NCBI GenBank assembly: GCA_963971535.1
Contig: OZ020589.1
Span: 72,503,520 to 72,567,519, forward strand
Length of the DNA stretch: 64,000 nt
Reading direction: 5' to 3'
From: Notolepis coatsorum
Lineage: Eukaryota; Chordata; Actinopteri; Aulopiformes; Paralepididae
Positions 7,814-64,000 of this stretch are shown piece after piece (within the stretch, counting starts at the first letter, position 1; every line of letters begins with the position of its first letter). Below the pieces are notes generated by a model. The model did not search any database. It was not told the DNA's origin and saw nothing but the letters and a program-made list of their open reading frames with translations. The translations under genes were made by a program, and so were the position numbers.

Positions 7814-8169
7814 TCTGTCCGGAAAAGTAGGTTCTTCTTTTTATTTGATGAGCTGTGCCTGTGGCTGTCCGGCGGGGGAGAATGTTGATGTGGCACGTGT
7901 GTGTGTGTGTGTGTCGGCGACGCGTGCATGTTTCTTTTCATTGGTTTCATTTGGTTAACGTTATTGGGCGCACAAGAAAACGAAAGAAAACTGTAATGAT
8001 GACCCTGCAACTGTTCCAATGTAAATGTGCCTGGCTTTCTCCTCCGTGCACTTTCGCCGCTCTGAAGTCTGAGCTCGGTGTGCCCGGCCACGTGCGCTGT
8101 TCTCACACGGACCTCGCGCGTGCCTGCATGTGGGTGTGTTTGCGCTGTGGGGCGTATTAGTCGCATGGG

Positions 8170-9189
8170 CAGGGACCGAAACTAGAGAGCGCCACCCGCC
8201 ATTTGCGCTCAGTTTTTACGTTTGGCGCCTCCCACTGAGACGTCTGAGCGCCGTGTGACGGGCAATCAAATAGTCATGTGAAAACCGAAAATCATGATCC
8301 AATTCTTTAGCGGAGTTCTCACTCGCTGTCTCAGCAGACATGAAGCGCGCACCGCGCACTGCTGCTGCTGCTGCTGCTGCATGTAAACAGAGGCTATTGC
8401 CTCCGAGTCACCGTGACGTTAGTTAGCACTGCTGCTGCTGCTAATGCCTGCATGTAAACAGAGGCTATTGCCTCACTGTGACGTTAGTCTAGTCAGTGTG
8501 GGACCTTCGTGAGATAACGTTAGCTACCGTTACAAAATGACCCAGTCAACTATTCACTTAGTTTAATACACAAGGCATTGTGTAACGTTATCCAGCCGGC
8601 TAGCTACGGATAGCTCCCGACATCAACAAATCCTCCAGCAATAGTCCAGTGCATAATACCTCCGTTGGCTAGGTAACTAGTCACTACGAAATGTCGCAGT
8701 AAACTAAATAGTTCACTGAGGCGTTGTCCCAACGCCATCCAGCAGTAGCTACAGATAGCTCTTGGCATCAATGTCCTACAAGGCTACAACAACAACATGC
8801 GTATTCGAGTCCCTGGTTTACATCGCATGAGTGAGGGCTGCTGACTAGGGTCCAGGTGCAGCGCCGGAGAATTATTTTGCATGCTGAATGTAGCGTTTAG
8901 GGTCCAGCTGCACCCCCGGAGAATCCTTGCTGGAGCTGGAGGCCACTCGAGTATACACACAGACAGTGGAGCTGTTTGCAGACAGCGAGGTGGCGATGTC
9001 TCGCAGATAACACAATCACAAGTATGATTATATAATATATATATTTTATTAAAAAAAAATCTATATAAAATAATAATAAAAAAAAAAATTATCAAAAAAA
9101 AGTTGGCGGGTAAGAAATATGCTTGGCGGGTAGATTCTTCCCATCTACCCGCCACTGGCCGGTGAGTCAAAAAGTTAATTTCGCTCCCT
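8170..9189. mobile_element. hAT (CAGGGACCG...CGCTCCCTG)
   Basis: A perfect 8-bp duplication CGCATGGG flanks the element at 8162-8169 and 9190-9197. The ends are CAGGGACCGAAACTA and TAATTTCGCTCCCTG. The interior carries CTG repeats at 8359-8380 and 8423-8437. Its segment 8780-9050 is the reverse complement of the interior of the TAGGGATGCCCCG family elements (40100-40260 and 43700-43860), so two terminal families share a core. Confidence 0.9.
8356..8440 (+). repeat. (CTG)n runs with a 70-bp imperfect tandem repeat
   Basis: CTG repeats at 8359-8380 are followed by TGTAAACAGAGGCTATTGCC. The same combination recurs from 8423 onward with fewer CTG units. Confidence 0.7.
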
Positions 9190-31629: not shown

Positions 31630-32147
31630 GGTACCTAATCGACTCGACTCGCTTTTGCTATTTGAGTGTCCTGGTAGCCGTATTTGAAGTGACGTCACAC
31701 GAGGAAGTAAATAATCAACAGTAACACTGCATTGGAACCTGGAGAAGCCCTGATGATATAATATAAACAGCCAATAAATGTGAAGTTATCTTTGAACCTC
31801 TGTTTTCAAGCCTCCTCAATATACCCCCCCTTCCCCACTAATGGAACACAGCGAAGTGACTCAATATTGTCTCTCAATATTAGGGATGCACCGATATGAA
31901 AATTGGCCACCGATACCGATACCGATTGTTCAACTAACACAATCGGCCGATACCGATACCGATTCCGATATTTGTGGCAAAAAATAAGTATTTGTAATTT
32001 CTTTTAATATATTTTTTTTTATATTTTTTTTTTAATGAAACTACTGTATATTTGTATGTGTATGTTTGTATTTGTAGGCCTCTTTACTTAAAAAAAGGAA
32101 GAAATATGTTTATAGTATTAATTCAGCCATGCCATGTAGCACTATCC

Positions 32148-32956
32148 TAGGGCTGGGCGATATGACCAAAAACGTTATCGCGATAAAATTATAAAATTAT
32201 TTTCATATAATTCGATATCGATAATTATCGTCGATATAATGTCCGTCAAGTTTAATTAACTTCTTATGCTGCTGCGAATGTCTCAAGTCGAGTTGATGTC
32301 GTCATCAGTCTGCGCACGTTAGCCGACAAGCGGAGTATCTCATGACAATAAATATGACACTAAAATACTCTCTTCCGCCACAATATATTGAAACGACGTC
32401 CACTGTATATCCCACACTACCATAAACGTGGCCTCAGAATTCAAAACACACACATACTCGGCACGTAAATATATAAAACAGTGCCGTGCAAGCTAGTTAT
32501 CCTAGCCAGCCTGTTGGTTCTAAGCGGAGTATTCCATGACAATGTGCTAAATATGACACTAAAATACTCTCTTCCGCCACAATATATTGAAACGGCGTCC
32601 ACTGTATATCCCACACTACCATAAACGTGGCCTCAGAATTCAAAACACACACATACTCGGCACGTAAATATATAAAACAATGCCGTGCAAGCTAATTAGC
32701 CTAGCAAGCCTTGTTGGAGTGAGTCCTACCTCCTTCCGGGTCTCGGCCATCTCCTTCACTGATTGGTTGTTAGCTGTTGTGCGTAAGTACGTCATCACGT
32801 AACGCTGGTTGTTGTTAGTGAGTGTGTTGAGCCGAGGCTGAACGGAGCCAAGCTTGGAAAATCGATATATCGAAACTTTGCGACCACGTTTCATGTTTAT
32901 TTCGAGGAAATAATTTATCACGATAGTTATCGTTATCGTTTTATCGCCCAGCCCTA
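32148..32956. mobile_element. hAT (TAGGGCTGGGCGATA family), two internal units
   Basis: A perfect duplication CACTATCC is at 32140-32147 and 32957-32964. It is in the opposite orientation to 29539-30737. Two tandem units of about 194 bp begin near 32330 and 32524. Confidence 0.95.
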
Positions 32957-33582
32957 CACTATCCCTCTCCCAGTATCGTCTGGCGGCCTGCAGATGGATA
33001 CTATTCTCTCAACCAGAGCTTTCAACCAATGCAATAGAACCATTTTGATTGACAGTCGATTCGGCCAATTACGCCACACCGCTAGCACCCACCTCCTGCT
33101 GTTCTTACCACCAATCGGCAAGCGTTTATTCATTTTCTACTTCCGGGCATGCCGCCATTGATCTGCTTGCGAGAACCACAACAAGCTAATACGTTAGCTG
33201 CCCGCCAACCAGCGCGCTCCACAGGATGACCAAACGAGACACAATGATTTTACTGCAACAAATGTTATAATAAAACAAAGCCTTTCTGTTACAAAGGGTC
33301 AGATTAAACCGAATATATGTATTTACTGATTGATATATATTGCATAATATTTGTATATCGTTTTGATATCCCTTGTATATTCTTTGTACATATACACTGA
33401 ATATCCCTTTAGTCTACTACAGCCCATAATAGTTCATTCTCTCATTGGACAAGAACCTGGCGCCAGCAGACAGGCCCCTTGAGTCAAGTTCAATAGTGCC
33501 GACGAACATGTCCCAACTAGCCCCGGTTCCGCGTAGGAATACGGCTACCGAAATACGAATGGTACTATTTGTTCACCGTGCA

Positions 33583-33590
33583 TATAAATA
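33583..33590 (+). promoter_or_regulatory. TATA box of the solo LTR
   Basis: TATAAATA lies about 300 bp into the LTR, within GTGCATATAAATAGGGCGC. Transcription would start near 33615. Confidence 0.6.
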
Positions 33591-34325
33591 GGGCGCAAGA
33601 AATGTAGAATTCCTCTTAGTCCCTTGTCCCGTTCAGTCTCGTTCAGTTCCAGTTATCCAAGTGACGTCTCTCCCCACTACGCAACGTGGGCAGAGTAGGG
33701 CTCGCATCGCCCCAAGATAGAGTCTCGTGTTATCCTACTACGTTTGTTTAACGTATCGTTCGCTACTTACTAGTAAAAGCCTTCATTACGAGTCAAAGAC
33801 CACGTGAAGTGAGTAATTGTGCGTCTACATAGAGCACTTATTGCCGCGTACTAATAGGATAGTAACGTCAAGTTCAACCGTGGACTACCGTGCACCACGG
33901 AGGATACCTACACCGGTGATTGCAGAGCCACTTTCCGGCAAGGATTATTATTCTTCATTGCTTTGATCAAGCTGCTGGAGCAGAGAACCGTCTACCCACT
34001 GCTGTGGGATCTACACAGGCCCGTGAGGACATCACTCGAGCCCGTCTCTGTCGGAGCAGAGACTCCACGGCTTCATCTGCGGCGCGCACCCTAGGATTAC
34101 AGCTGCTGCTTTCCCCGCTGACACAGGGGTGATATCGCCTCCGTGGACTCATTGACTTGCATAGAGCATTGCCTCCCCCTGCTGGCTTACAACCGGTAGT
34201 ACCCCCTCTCCAGCTACTTCCCTGAGTACCATAGATAATTACTAATATTCACTATTGATTTGCCTATGCACATTCGATTTGCCTTATAAGCGCATTCAAG
34301 TAATGTAATATCCCACCTTTGATGT

Positions 34326-34331
34326 AATAAA
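34326..34331 (+). terminator. Polyadenylation signal of the solo LTR
   Basis: AATAAA lies in TGATGTAATAAATATTC about 160 bp before the LTR end, in the expected orientation. Confidence 0.5.
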
Positions 34332-34889
34332 TATTCTAAACAAGTATTTGTGTGGAAACCGTGTTATTGTGGAGAAGTTCTCATCATATACCTGTGTACG
34401 GTATTGGCCAGTAATGTACATAAGACGGTAGTAGTTTAATGATACTAATACTTGATTAATACAGTCAGGGAATTGTACCCCTCAGTTACACTTTCTATAC
34501 ATTTGTCTGGTTGAAAACTTTATTAACAGATTGCAGAATGGGTAGTTGGGTACGGAATGAGCAACGGAATGGAACTGAGCTATGAACGGAGTAATGCCTT
34601 GCTTACTTGCTATCTTCGGGTAAATAATATGCTGATGTTATTGAACGTGTAACACTAACTATATAACGTTAATGCCACAAAACGAATGTTTGTGTCATTT
34701 TAACAGCAGATACTTTCTTAAATGCCATCTTCCCGAGAGAGGGGTGTTGACGGGGAGCTGTGATGGGTTCGCTTGGTTGTGTTATTAATAGCATTGAGCA
34801 GCTAACCGAAAGCTAGCGTTAACTAACGTTAAAGGTTTAGCCATAACGTTACCTTGGCTAAAGTTGGGGCTATTCATAATCCAGCAATA

Positions 34890-34943
34890 ATGGCTGCAGA
34901 CCTGCAAGCAAAGTACAGCAAGTTGGCAAAGGAGTATTCCAAC
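34890..34943 (+). pseudogene. ppp1r21: Captured first exon resembling ppp1r21, copy 1
   Basis: The open segment reads MAADLQAKYSKLAKEYSN and is followed directly by GTAAAT, a splice-donor sequence. The PPP1R21 protein (an early-endosome and phosphatase-1 associated coiled-coil protein) starts with a closely similar segment, pattern LQxKYxKLAxEYSK, which I recall from the family. The flanking 5' sequence (about 34690-34889) and the first intron bases are shared with copy 2 at 63939. Comparing both copies, the ancestral junction was probably TCCAAG then GTAAAT, each copy carrying one substitution there. The exon is inside the hAT 31881-35365 and has no following exons, so it is a gene fragment, not a gene. 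Confidence 0.6.
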
Positions 34944-35454
34944 GTAAATCACATTTTCACCAGTAACGTTAGTCTTCCATCTGCCGGTAGCTCATGCTAG
35001 CTAACCTAGCTCATGTTAGCGTCGTCACTGAGCGACCACCTCGCGTACACAATTAATGACATGTTGCGGACAGCCATATCGGTGACAATGTTTAGCTTTT
35101 AGTGCCAAATGATAAGAGTCTGAAGCGGAGTCTCAAAAGAGAATGTTGAATATTTAGTAGTAACTTTGATGCAGTAGCTTGTGTGCGTGTGGGGGACTGG
35201 GGGACTGGGGGCGGCGCGGTTGTGCAGGACGCGACTGAATTTATCGGCTACTGCCATCGGCACATTCGAGCTTATCGGCCGATAGGCCGATTGCAGTCAA
35301 CAAGGCACTTATCGGCCGATACCGATACCCGACCGATACCCGACCGATACATCGGTGCACCCCTACTCAATATTAAGAAAACGAAATGTATGGTTTTTGG
35401 TAATCGAAAAGAAATAGTGGGGGATATCGAGTAAAAAATATGTGATGTAAAAAT

Positions 35455-39919: not shown

Positions 39920-41069
39920 TAGGGATGCCCCGATCACGTTTTTTGCCACCGATACCGATCACCGATCGTCGTGAGCCATATCGGCCGATACCGATCCGAT
40001 ACCGATCGTTTTTGATTAAAAAGAAATTAAAAATTGTTTTATATAAAAAGTTTTTTTTTTTTTTTTTTTTATAAAATATATATATTATATAATTAGACTT
40101 GTACTTGTATTATCTGCGAGACATCGCCACCACGCAACAAGTCAAAATGCTCGCTATCTCCACTGTCTGTGTGTACATACTCTGCTTTGATCAAATCACA
40201 TTCGGCTCTGCAGATTTACCCTAGGCTCTGCAGATATACCCTACTCCCTCAGCTATCCCCGTTAATGACTGCGACGCAAGCCGGGCTTCGAATATGCATC
40301 GAATGAGTGTTATAAGACATTGATATCAGGAGCTGTCTGTAGCTACTGCTAGCCGGAAATATAACGTTAAGACAACGCCTCAGTGAACTATTTAGTTGAA
40401 TGGGACATTTCGTTTTGAACAGTGAGCTAAGCTAACGTGAGCTAACAGAGGTAACATACACTAGTACTAGATAACTAGACTATTGCTGGAGCATTTGTTG
40501 ATATCAGGAGCTATCAGTAGCTAGCCGGCTAGATACCGTTCAGTTAGACAATGCCTCATCATGTATTAAACTAAAAGTGAATAGTTGACTGGGTCATTTT
40601 GTAGCGGTAGCTAACGTTAGCTCATGGAGGTCCCGTCCCACTAGACTAGACTAGACCCGTGTTTACATGCGTGCGGGAGGAGCTGGAGGAGGAGCAGAAG
40701 ACGCGCAGCACTGTGTGCAGCTCCCGGTGTCTGAGACAGAACTCAGCGAGTGAGATCTGTTTTGACGATCGGCGAAAATAAAACAGTAACGATAGCTAGG
40801 TAGCTAACGTTAGCTCAGGTCGAATGCACTATCTAGACTCAGCAGAGGAGCCGCCTCCTCTGTGTTTACAAACTCTACACGGGTGCGGGCGGGGCTAGGG
40901 AGGAGGAGCAGTTTGCAGGTCCTGTGCGTCTGAGACAAGCGAGTGAGATATCCACTTGATCAGTTTCCGCGATCGGCGAATATGACTCATTATCGGAATT
41001 CCCCGATCGCATATTTATACTGAATATCGGCCGATAACGATCGGTGGCCGATCGATCGGGGCATCCCTA
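39920..41069. mobile_element. hAT (TAGGGATGCCCCGATC...GATCGGGGCATCCCTA)
   Basis: A perfect duplication ACAGGAAT is at 39912-39919 and 41070-41077. The ends repeat CCGATACCGATC and CGGCCGAT words. A T-run with TATA repeats is at 40050-40090. The interior contains several GCTAACGTTA words and shares sequence with 43534-45124 and with 8780-9050. No transposase is seen. Confidence 0.95.
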
Positions 41070-43533: not shown

Positions 43534-45124
43534 TAGGGATGCCCCGATCACAGTTTTTGCCACCGATACCGATCACAGATAGTCTTGAGCCATATCGACC
43601 GATACCGATCCGATACTAATAGTTTTTGATTAATTTTTTTTTTTTTATTATTTTATATACATTTTTTTTATATATATATATAAAATATATATATTATATA
43701 ATTAGACTTGTACTTGTATTATCTGCGAGACATCGCCACCACGCAACAAGTCAAAATGCTCGCTATCTGCAAACAGCTCCACTGTCTGTGTGTACTCGAG
43801 TAGCCTCCAGCTACGGCCAGGATTCTCCGGCGCTGCAGCTGGACCCTAGTATTGGTATAAATCACATTCAACAAGCCCTCAGCTCGAATACGCATTGAAT
43901 CAATGTTATAATACATTGATATCAGGAGCTACTGCTCTAGATACTGCTAGCCGGCTAGATAACGTTAAGACAACGCCTCAGTGAACTATTTAGTTTAGAG
44001 CTAACGTGAGCTAGGGCTGGGCGATATAACGATAACGATAAATATCGCGATATATTTCAATAATCGATATCGAAATTTAAAAAAAAATCTGCAACAGGGC
44101 AGTTTTAAAACCAGAGACAGTGGACAGACTTGTCTTTCTTGCCTGCAACTTAAAGTAATGGCTTTGCTTGTCCAAATGACAATACTGACCAAATTAAGAT
44201 TTCTTTTTCTCTTGTCCATTTATTTTGTTTGCTTTCTAATTTAAAATACATTTTGAAACCGTCTGTACACAGTAGGCTATGTGTGCTAGCAGAACTAGAC
44301 TCCAGTCACGAGTCACAGTGCACATGTGCGGTGGTTTGTCCACCAAAAAAGCGCCAAAAGATCGAAAATAAACTAGCAGAGCCAGAACTGTTCAACTCCT
44401 CTGGAGCCACAGCCAGCAGAGAAGCCGGTTTACTTTAGCTTTTAAACCAGCTACAGCCTGAGAACTGGAGTGTGAGGGGATATAACACTAAAGATGGCGG
44501 CATTGACAAAGAATTGCTGCAAAATAAACATACATCTGTTATAAAAAAAATAAAAATAAAAATATTTATACTTATAACAATTCGATAATTATCGATATCG
44601 AGAAATAAAATAAAATTATCATATCGTTATCGCGATATGATTTTTTTCCATATCGCCCAGCCCTAACGTGAGCTACCGAGTCAACGGAGGTAACTTATCA
44701 TGCACTCGACTATTGCTGGAGCATTTGTTGATATCAGCAGCTATCAGTAGCTAGCCAGCTAGATAACGTTAGACAATGCCTCATGTAGTCACTGGGTCAT
44801 TTAGTTTAAACAGTAACGTTAGCTCGGTAGGTACTGGTAGCCAATGTTAGCTCACGTCGCATCATGCACCAGACTATAGCAGACTGCGAGGCTCTTGTTT
44901 ACATGAGTGCGGGAGGGGCTGGGGAGGAGGAGGCGCCGTACGCTGCTTAGCTCTGTGTGTCTGAGAGAGAAGTCAGCAGTGACTGTGAGATCTCAACTAA
45001 GAATTGGATCATGTTTTTCGATCGGTTTTGACGATCGGCGAAAATAAAGCATTATCACCGATCACATATTTATACTGATTATCGGCCGATAACGATCGGT
45101 GGCCGATCGATCGGGGCATCCCTA
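43534..45124. mobile_element. hAT (TAGGGATGCCCCGATC family) with a nested hAT
   Basis: A perfect duplication TCTTCAAC is at 43526-43533 and 45125-45132. It is the same family as 39920-41069. The hAT 44012-44665 is inserted at an ACGTGAGC site. Confidence 0.95.
44012..44665. mobile_element. hAT (TAGGGCTGGGCGATATAACG subfamily)
   Basis: A perfect duplication ACGTGAGC is at 44004-44011 and 44666-44673. The ends are those of the TAGGGCTGGGCGATA group but the interior differs from 41196 and 42053 and has no tandem unit. It is the youngest layer at this site. Confidence 0.95.
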
Positions 45125-63540: not shown

Positions 63541-63568
63541 GGGTACTGTAAATACATAATCCATGTGT

Positions 63569-64000
63569 TAGAGTTGTTCCGATACCGATACTGGTATCGG
63601 AAAAGCCGCCGATACTGGCTAAAATGCTGGTATCGGTATCGGCGAGTACCCTCTAATGCTGCGCTCCGATACCATATGACGTAATTTATCAACAACACTG
63701 TGGTCTGTTGAGTAAGCATTATAAAACAAACGTGTGCTTAATCGATTAAAGTGTCAATGCCATTTGTCATTTTAACAGCAGATACTTTCTTAAATGTCAT
63801 CGTCCCGACAGAGCGGTGTTGACGGCGAGCTCATGGGTTCGCTTGGTGGCTGGTGTTATTAGCATTGAACGGCTAACCGAAAGCTAGCTTTAACATTACC
63901 TTGGCTAAAGTTGGGGCTATTCATATAATCCAGCAATAATGGCTGCAGACCTGCAAGCAAAGTACAGCAAGTTGGCAAAGGAGTATTCCAAGTTAAATCA
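63569..64000 (+). mobile_element. hAT-like left end (TAGAGTTGTTCCGATACC), continues beyond window
   Basis: The end TAGAGTTGTTCCGATACCG is followed by GATACTGGTATCGG words. The interior from 63765 is the same captured gene segment found in the hAT 31881-35365, although the ends of the two elements differ. Confidence 0.65.
63939..64000 (+). pseudogene. ppp1r21: Captured first exon resembling ppp1r21, copy 2
   Basis: The frame reads MAADLQAKYSKLAKEYSKLN up to the window end. The first 18 codons match the PPP1R21 N-terminal pattern (see the copy at 34890). The expected exon end is after EYSK; the next bases are TTAAAT where copy 1 has GTAAAT, so the splice donor is mutated here. Since intron and upstream sequence are shared by both copies, the segment was taken from genomic DNA, not from mRNA. 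Confidence 0.6.

Follow-up and report, generated by a model that had tools for sequence, protein, structure and literature searches.

How does the start of a single host gene come to lie inside transposable elements with different ends? The question is raised by a 64,000-nucleotide stretch (the window) of contig C13 in the 3.42-Gb genome of the fish Notolepis coatsorum, in which a segment resembling the promoter, first exon and intron start of ppp1r21 occurs twice. The original prediction held that two different hAT elements carry this segment, that it had been captured as DNA and that it had then passed between terminal families, as a vertebrate counterpart of Pack-type gene capture.

Both copies lie within hAT-like, non-autonomous elements at the places predicted for them, and both kinds of ends are present. 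Element A (31881–35365, forward strand) has relatives with different target-site duplications (TSDs). Its own 8-bp TSD, CTCAATAT, stands on the left at 31873–31880 and on the right at 35366–35373, and its terminal inverted repeats (TIRs) are TAGGGATGCACCGATA and TAGGGGTGCACCGATG. Because spanning alignments of other A copies skip 32148–32956 and 33288–34490, these two tracts are probable nested insertions outside the core of the element, which measures ∼1.47 kb after their removal. Alignment with B and with a capture-free A element (locus L014) places the captured block at 34689–35156 (forward strand), with edges uncertain by a few bases; the repeated segment predicted at 34690–34950 is present, but the block is slightly wider. 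It holds the ppp1r21 promoter, exon 1 and intron 1 together with B-lineage sequence. The captured first coding exon, 18 codons from ATG, occupies 34890–34943 (forward strand), its last base changed from G to C, and the captured splice donor, GTAAAT at 34944–34949 (forward strand), now stands in the junction AAC|GTAAAT.

Element B (63569–64000, forward strand; TIR TAGAGTTGTTCCGATA) is cut by the window end. The full element is 1,079 bp (L030, 1569–2647) and ends 647 bases beyond the window, where the fetched sequence again holds its TSD, CCATGTGT, present on the left at 63561–63568. Captured ppp1r21 sequence starts at 63715, fills the rest of the window (63715–64000, forward strand) and runs on past it, beginning ∼60 bp farther upstream in the gene than the capture in A. 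The first coding exon, again 18 codons from ATG, lies at 63939–63992 (forward strand), so the start codon and exon codons read from the two copies are borne out, and the splice donor is lost through the change of GTAAAT to TTAAAT at 63993–63998 (forward strand). Alignment of window elements A and B finds that single block in common and nothing else. The window also contains two more candidate elements, at 39920–41069 and 43534–45124, whose ends (TAGGGATGCCCCGATC) face each other.

The block is abundant genome-wide. An exact 35-mer across the start codon occurs 3,579 times, an exact 30-mer across the exon-donor junction 3,462 times and an exact C-type 35-mer (family C, below) lacking the start codon 893 times, and reversed control patterns gave 0 matches in every genome-wide pattern count. 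Together, the two exon markers mark ∼5,650 copies, an estimate scaled from the first 105 Mb of contig C1, in which 100 donor and 90 start-codon matches had 40 places in common. These markers follow the copies at bases where the gene reads otherwise, and more gene-like copies would therefore be missed both in the counts and in the fetching, which relied largely on such patterns. Exact left junctions number 987 for A and 478 for C, the B left arm occurs 1,155 times and the empty (capture-free) A junction 1,292 times. Of 32 B left arms in the first 105 Mb of C1, 25 lie no more than 900 bp from an exact exon marker. Some of the copies are young, since the best 40 of 3,174 candidates for A are 99 to 100% identical and the best 40 of 1,819 for B are all (40/40) 100% identical over 236 bp.

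The predicted transfer between terminal families held, and the number of families proved to be at least three rather than two: B (TAGAGTTGTTCC), A (TAGGGATGCACC) and C (CAGTGTTAATTT). Outside the block, their arms give short matches only (best E value, 1e-4, for an 18- to 20-bp subterminal repeat of A and B) and are otherwise unrelated in sequence. The ends of C are CAGTGTTAATTTTGTC, as in L053, an element of 1,198 bp with the TSD CTAGGAGC. Our samples comprised 20 A copies (the window copy, L015 to L029 from among the best hits and L047 to L050 from the match list of the exon-donor 30-mer), 14 B copies (the window copy/L030, L031, L033, L040 to L046, L055 to L057 and L060) and 11 C or C-like copies (L032, L034 to L039 and L051 to L054). 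L058 and L059, each with one flank only, were left out of the family samples. At L032 (504–1530), a C-type block lies near 132-bp inverted arms; one such copy was seen, and it is possibly a fourth carrier.

hAT elements are recognized by an 8-bp TSD and by short TIRs of the (C/T)AG...CT(A/G) type. Sampled elements of all three families have 8-bp TSDs, and their TIRs (TAGGGATGCACCGATA, TAGAGTTGTTCCGATA and CAGTGTTAATTTTGTC) are short, with 14 to 16 of 16 bases complementary in TSD-bearing copies. Perfect TSDs (8/8) flank 12 of 20 A, 8 of 14 B and 1 of 11 C or C-like copies, and all 21 are different; one additional A copy and one additional C copy match at 7 of 8 positions. In the remaining sampled copies, which are truncated or rearranged or whose flank was not fetched, a TSD was not found. 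Many C or C-like copies are truncated or rearranged: the left end lies within the fetched stretch in 6 of 11, and only 2 of 11 have a TSD of ≥7/8. As predicted, then, many copies have hAT ends: markers number in the thousands, and about half of the sampled copies combine hAT-like ends with differing 8-bp TSDs. A host element without the fragment was found for A only, namely, L014 at 8075–9104 (C23:6694075–6695104; 1,030 bp; TSD ATTTACAA). Exon 1 of ppp1r21 itself lies ∼30 kb downstream of this capture-free element.

Plain segmental duplication of a ppp1r21 pseudogene with hAT ends in it by chance is scarcely credible as the source of the copies: two checked members of a nine-copy cluster on C13 do share flank past the element end, but the perfect 8-bp duplications of the 21 sampled copies all differ, and the main alignments (>150 bits) of all 15 A copies compared extend ≤9 bases past the element ends (in L015, a match to a neighboring repeat is separate from the main alignment).

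The parent of the block is the ppp1r21 gene on contig C23. The KLRAQ profile PF10205, for the N-terminal domain of PPP1R21, identified a single place in the genome (5 candidates scored), exon 3 of the gene; exon 2 is in the same stretch and exon 1 lies ∼18 kb upstream. The joined translation of exons 1 to 3 matches PPP1R21 in PDB entry 7nd2 (E value, 3e-34) and PF10205 (E value, 6e-34). Exon 1 of the parent has 18 codons from ATG and ends in the junction TCCAAG|GTAAAT, precisely the ancestor that had been deduced from the two window copies. None of the five A, B and C end sequences was found around exon 1, in a 10-kb stretch searched with up to 3 mismatches allowed, in agreement with the expectation that the parent locus would lack hAT ends. 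The expected alignment with the true exon 1 region was also obtained, as BLASTN against 3.7 kb of ppp1r21 gave best E values of 2e-43 for copy A and 2e-33 for copy B. Copy A matches the parent in three blocks (promoter, 84% identity; promoter-exon-intron, 83%; intron 1, 80%), and the whole of B matches in four pieces, the first beginning 638 bp ahead of the ATG and the last ending ∼1.6 kb within intron 1. Because intron bases are in the captured block, the capture was from DNA, as originally proposed. The TIR elements enclose host sequence, and the parental copy of that sequence on C23 has no such ends.

The gene of today has a tandem array in the promoter stretch and a long repeat-like stretch in intron 1, and both are absent from the window B copy. 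The view that the copies retain an earlier, repeat-free ppp1r21 was dropped, since a piece of the repeat in parent intron 1 (L011) is found near the same place in B copy L040; the repeat may have been in place before the capture, or it may have arrived on two occasions.

Could the flow have been the reverse, with a transposon supplying ppp1r21 with its promoter and first exon? Transposon-derived first exons are in use in some vertebrate genes, and this general knowledge speaks for the idea, which is nonetheless hardly tenable here. The exon encodes an N-terminus shared with PPP1R21 of 7nd2, aligned gaplessly from query residue 2, and because this N-terminus is common to both, the exon should predate the elements. 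One residue is Q in the gene and in 7nd2 but K in the copies, and the direction from gene to element follows from this difference; in addition, the 10 kb around exon 1 is free of element ends.

Several lines of evidence give the order in which the families acquired the block. First, in a tree of 43 trimmed block sequences rooted on the gene, A forms one clade (98/96) and C forms one clade (95/93), B as a single clade is rejected (AU test, P = 7e-4), and two changes of end type are needed, with A and C nested in B. Second, B is nearest to the gene in the tree and holds the longest gene segment, which exceeds that of A on both sides, so that the A block lies inside that of B. Third, L060 is a complete B-ended element with the donor allele of A, AAC|GTAAAT; it joins A in a second trimmed tree (without L031, L037, L043 and L054 and with L060 added), where support is 85/75, below the starred level. 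Neither tree contains L056 or L057, whose exons are broken. Fourth, C copy L052 keeps the B subterminal sequence CACTGGTATCGGATCAGTAT beside the block, a sequence absent from the other 10 of the 11 C or C-like copies. Because of the tree, the larger segment of B, L060 and L052, we read the order as gene to B, followed by B to A and B to C, each once.

Had three hAT families captured this part of ppp1r21 independently, the separate ends and separate block boundaries of the families would be explained, but such a history is most improbable on the same evidence. Two end-type changes suffice with A and C nested in B, the A and C blocks lie within the extent of B, and the terminal B sequence in C copy L052 would have no place in such a scheme. 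Moreover, ∼60 bp (TTTTAGTGCCAAATGATAAGAG...) common to A, B and C is unmatched in the compared stretch of the gene, and aligned copies of all three have common exon differences from the gene, differences that are partly due to the fetching patterns that held them. Only the exon and the intron end were used from the multiple alignment of copies with the parent, in which the promoter was misaligned.

Two arrangements of the block are found in A. In the first (A1; the window copy and 13 of the 15 best-hit A copies), the block replaces 15 bp of the empty element L014. In the second (A2; L047 to L050, all four A loci taken from the donor-marker match list), the left arm runs to L014 position 780 and is followed by the block, by L014 from position 679 on and then by the empty junction, so that ∼102 bp of host sequence is repeated on either side of the block. 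A1 and A2 differ in their right junctions, and neither junction is present in L020 or L029, two of the 15 best-hit copies of A. Among the first 100 empty A junctions listed, twelve have a filled junction less than 1 kb upstream and therefore look like A2-type copies. The A2 arrangement may be older than A1, as L047 groups with A1 rows in the 43-row tree and L048 to L050 stand beside them. Six tandem pairs of capture-free A junctions, 170 to 360 bp apart, were also seen among the first 100 listed (C1:20568874, 80948178, 114957937, 133380002, 183263971 and 218866838). The A host segment near the junction thus appears prone to duplication even without the block, and because of these six pairs the repeated host sequence in A2 may be older than the block.

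We therefore consider it highly probable that a B-type element captured and amplified the start of ppp1r21 and that pieces of it then entered A and C and were amplified under their own ends. This reading starts from direct observations, namely, the parent, the approximate boundaries, the family order, the copy numbers, the distinct TSDs and the capture-free A host. On this view, a hAT element of type B (TAGAGTTGTTCC ends) would have captured a stretch whose limits in the gene of today are 638 bp before the ATG and ∼1.6 kb inside intron 1, and would then have amplified. Pieces of B still holding the promoter, exon 1 and donor would have been copied into TIR families A and C, which would have amplified later under their own ends. 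The transfers could have occurred by template switching during gap repair or during replication of the host element at a stalled fork, and mobility would have been provided by hAT transposases acting in trans. The host segment repeated in A2 suggests template switching, and a match of AATG at the left junction of A (CGAATG in the host and TCAATG in B), where the next few bases do not match B exactly, points weakly the same way. The same type of mechanism (FoSTeST) is proposed for Pack-TIRs by Tan et al. in their 2021 survey (PMC8277862).

Nested insertion is a distinct, if lesser, possibility for C and perhaps for A: a B element would have inserted into another hAT element and its ends would then have been deleted, with no template switching. 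Insertions of this type occur in the window (32148–32956 and 33288–34490), and C copy L052 retains part of the right end of B. Family A speaks against it: neither end of B survives there, the block of A1 takes the place of 15 bp of host, and in A2 the block is surrounded by a host repeat of ∼102 bp and not by an 8-bp TSD. Whichever route the block took into C, capture and amplification by B followed by entry into A and C remains our preferred reading.

The captured segment comprises the parts of a promoter/exon trap, and these have fared differently among the copies. Fully intact copies are in the minority: the intact 60-mer (ATG, open exon 1 and GTAAAT donor) has 224 exact matches genome-wide, some in local clusters, and in the first 105 Mb of C1, exon and donor are intact in 7 of the 40 copies with both markers. 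Among the 100 donor matches listed there, 42 read AAG|GT, 33 AAC|GT, 23 AAG|TT and 2 AAG|CT. B copies of the TT class have lost the GT of the donor, A copies have a changed last exon base (already so in B-ended L060), and all 11 sampled C or C-like copies have lost the start codon by a 9-bp deletion. Each expanded lineage has thus lost or weakened one part of the trap, and this pattern of damage may reflect either selection for disarmed copies or chance changes in founders. A wider proposal, that the ppp1r21 start is a passenger module moving between unrelated hAT families with selection favoring its disarmed versions, is tentative, and we think it rather unlikely to be correct in full.

One local group of intact copies lies at C13:5.028–5.257 Mb (L058 and L059), with nine fully intact exon-plus-donor copies in 230 kb. 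Co-option was considered for this cluster, but a comparison of two members gave 99% identity over 208 bp, of which ∼164 bp lie beyond the element end. The cluster (5.03 to 5.26 Mb) is likelier to be a local duplication series carrying the ppp1r21 start than a product of transposition.

Comparison with known systems separates what is familiar here from what is new. Helitrons have neither TIRs nor a TSD, and the ppp1r21 carriers have both TIRs and 8-bp TSDs. HelibatN3 of vespertilionid bats nevertheless offers a functional parallel: the promoter, N-terminal codons and splice donor of NUBPL were captured and amplified, and the resulting promoter/exon trap was shown by experiment (PMC4778049). The amplified ppp1r21 segment is made up of the corresponding parts, but HelibatN3 is a Helitron and the ppp1r21 carriers are TIR elements with 8-bp TSDs; the codons carried number six for NUBPL and 18 for ppp1r21, and the 4,690 copies given for HelibatN3 are a sum over the promoters of 15 genes (PMC4778049). 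The ppp1r21 carriers may thus be viewed as a hAT analogue of HelibatN3 with a relay between families, and the intact copies could act as promoter/exon traps in the same manner.

FB4, with 9- to 10-bp TSDs and long TIRs (PMC8277862), represents the Pack-MULE pattern; the ppp1r21 carriers have 8-bp TSDs and short TIRs. They resemble plant Pack-MULE and Pack-TYPE elements in bearing gene fragments on non-autonomous DNA transposons, but those are elements of plants, and the accessible text on them (PMC8903248) describes no relay of a fragment between end types. Also comparable are the animal Pack-TIRs, of which the consulted sections of the survey list 370 in 100 animal genomes, 208 of them hAT, the commonest superfamily (PMC8277862). 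Like these, the ppp1r21 carriers are non-autonomous TIR elements with a host gene fragment that includes noncoding sequence, a parental copy and TSDs. According to the same sections, only 4 multicopy Pack-TIRs are in reference genomes, those described have three to five copies, and hAT-N8_XT carries a 291-bp piece of the CAPSL 5′ untranslated region in multiple copies on three frog chromosomes (PMC8277862). The ppp1r21 case differs from the Pack-TIRs treated there in having thousands of copies, a complete first coding exon with its donor and a fragment passed from one TIR family to two others.

The label of Pack-type capture is therefore apt, but hAT captures in animals were already in print (PMC8277862), and the novelty lies in the scale and in the relay between families. 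Among titles and abstract starts in the open-licence literature, we found no hAT capture of ppp1r21, no fragment passed between TIR families and no TIR element in an animal with thousands of fragment copies.

The finding means that cut-and-paste TIR transposons can spread a host promoter, first exon and splice donor to thousands of places in an animal genome. Bat Helitrons have been reported to reach this scale, and the available sections of the Pack-TIR survey report no TIR element that does (PMC8277862). The steps of capture and passage can be read directly from two series of elements, one leading from the gene through B, L060 and A2 to A1 and the other from B through L052 to the other C copies. 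The intact and disarmed classes of copies provide a ready test of host selection against natural promoter traps.
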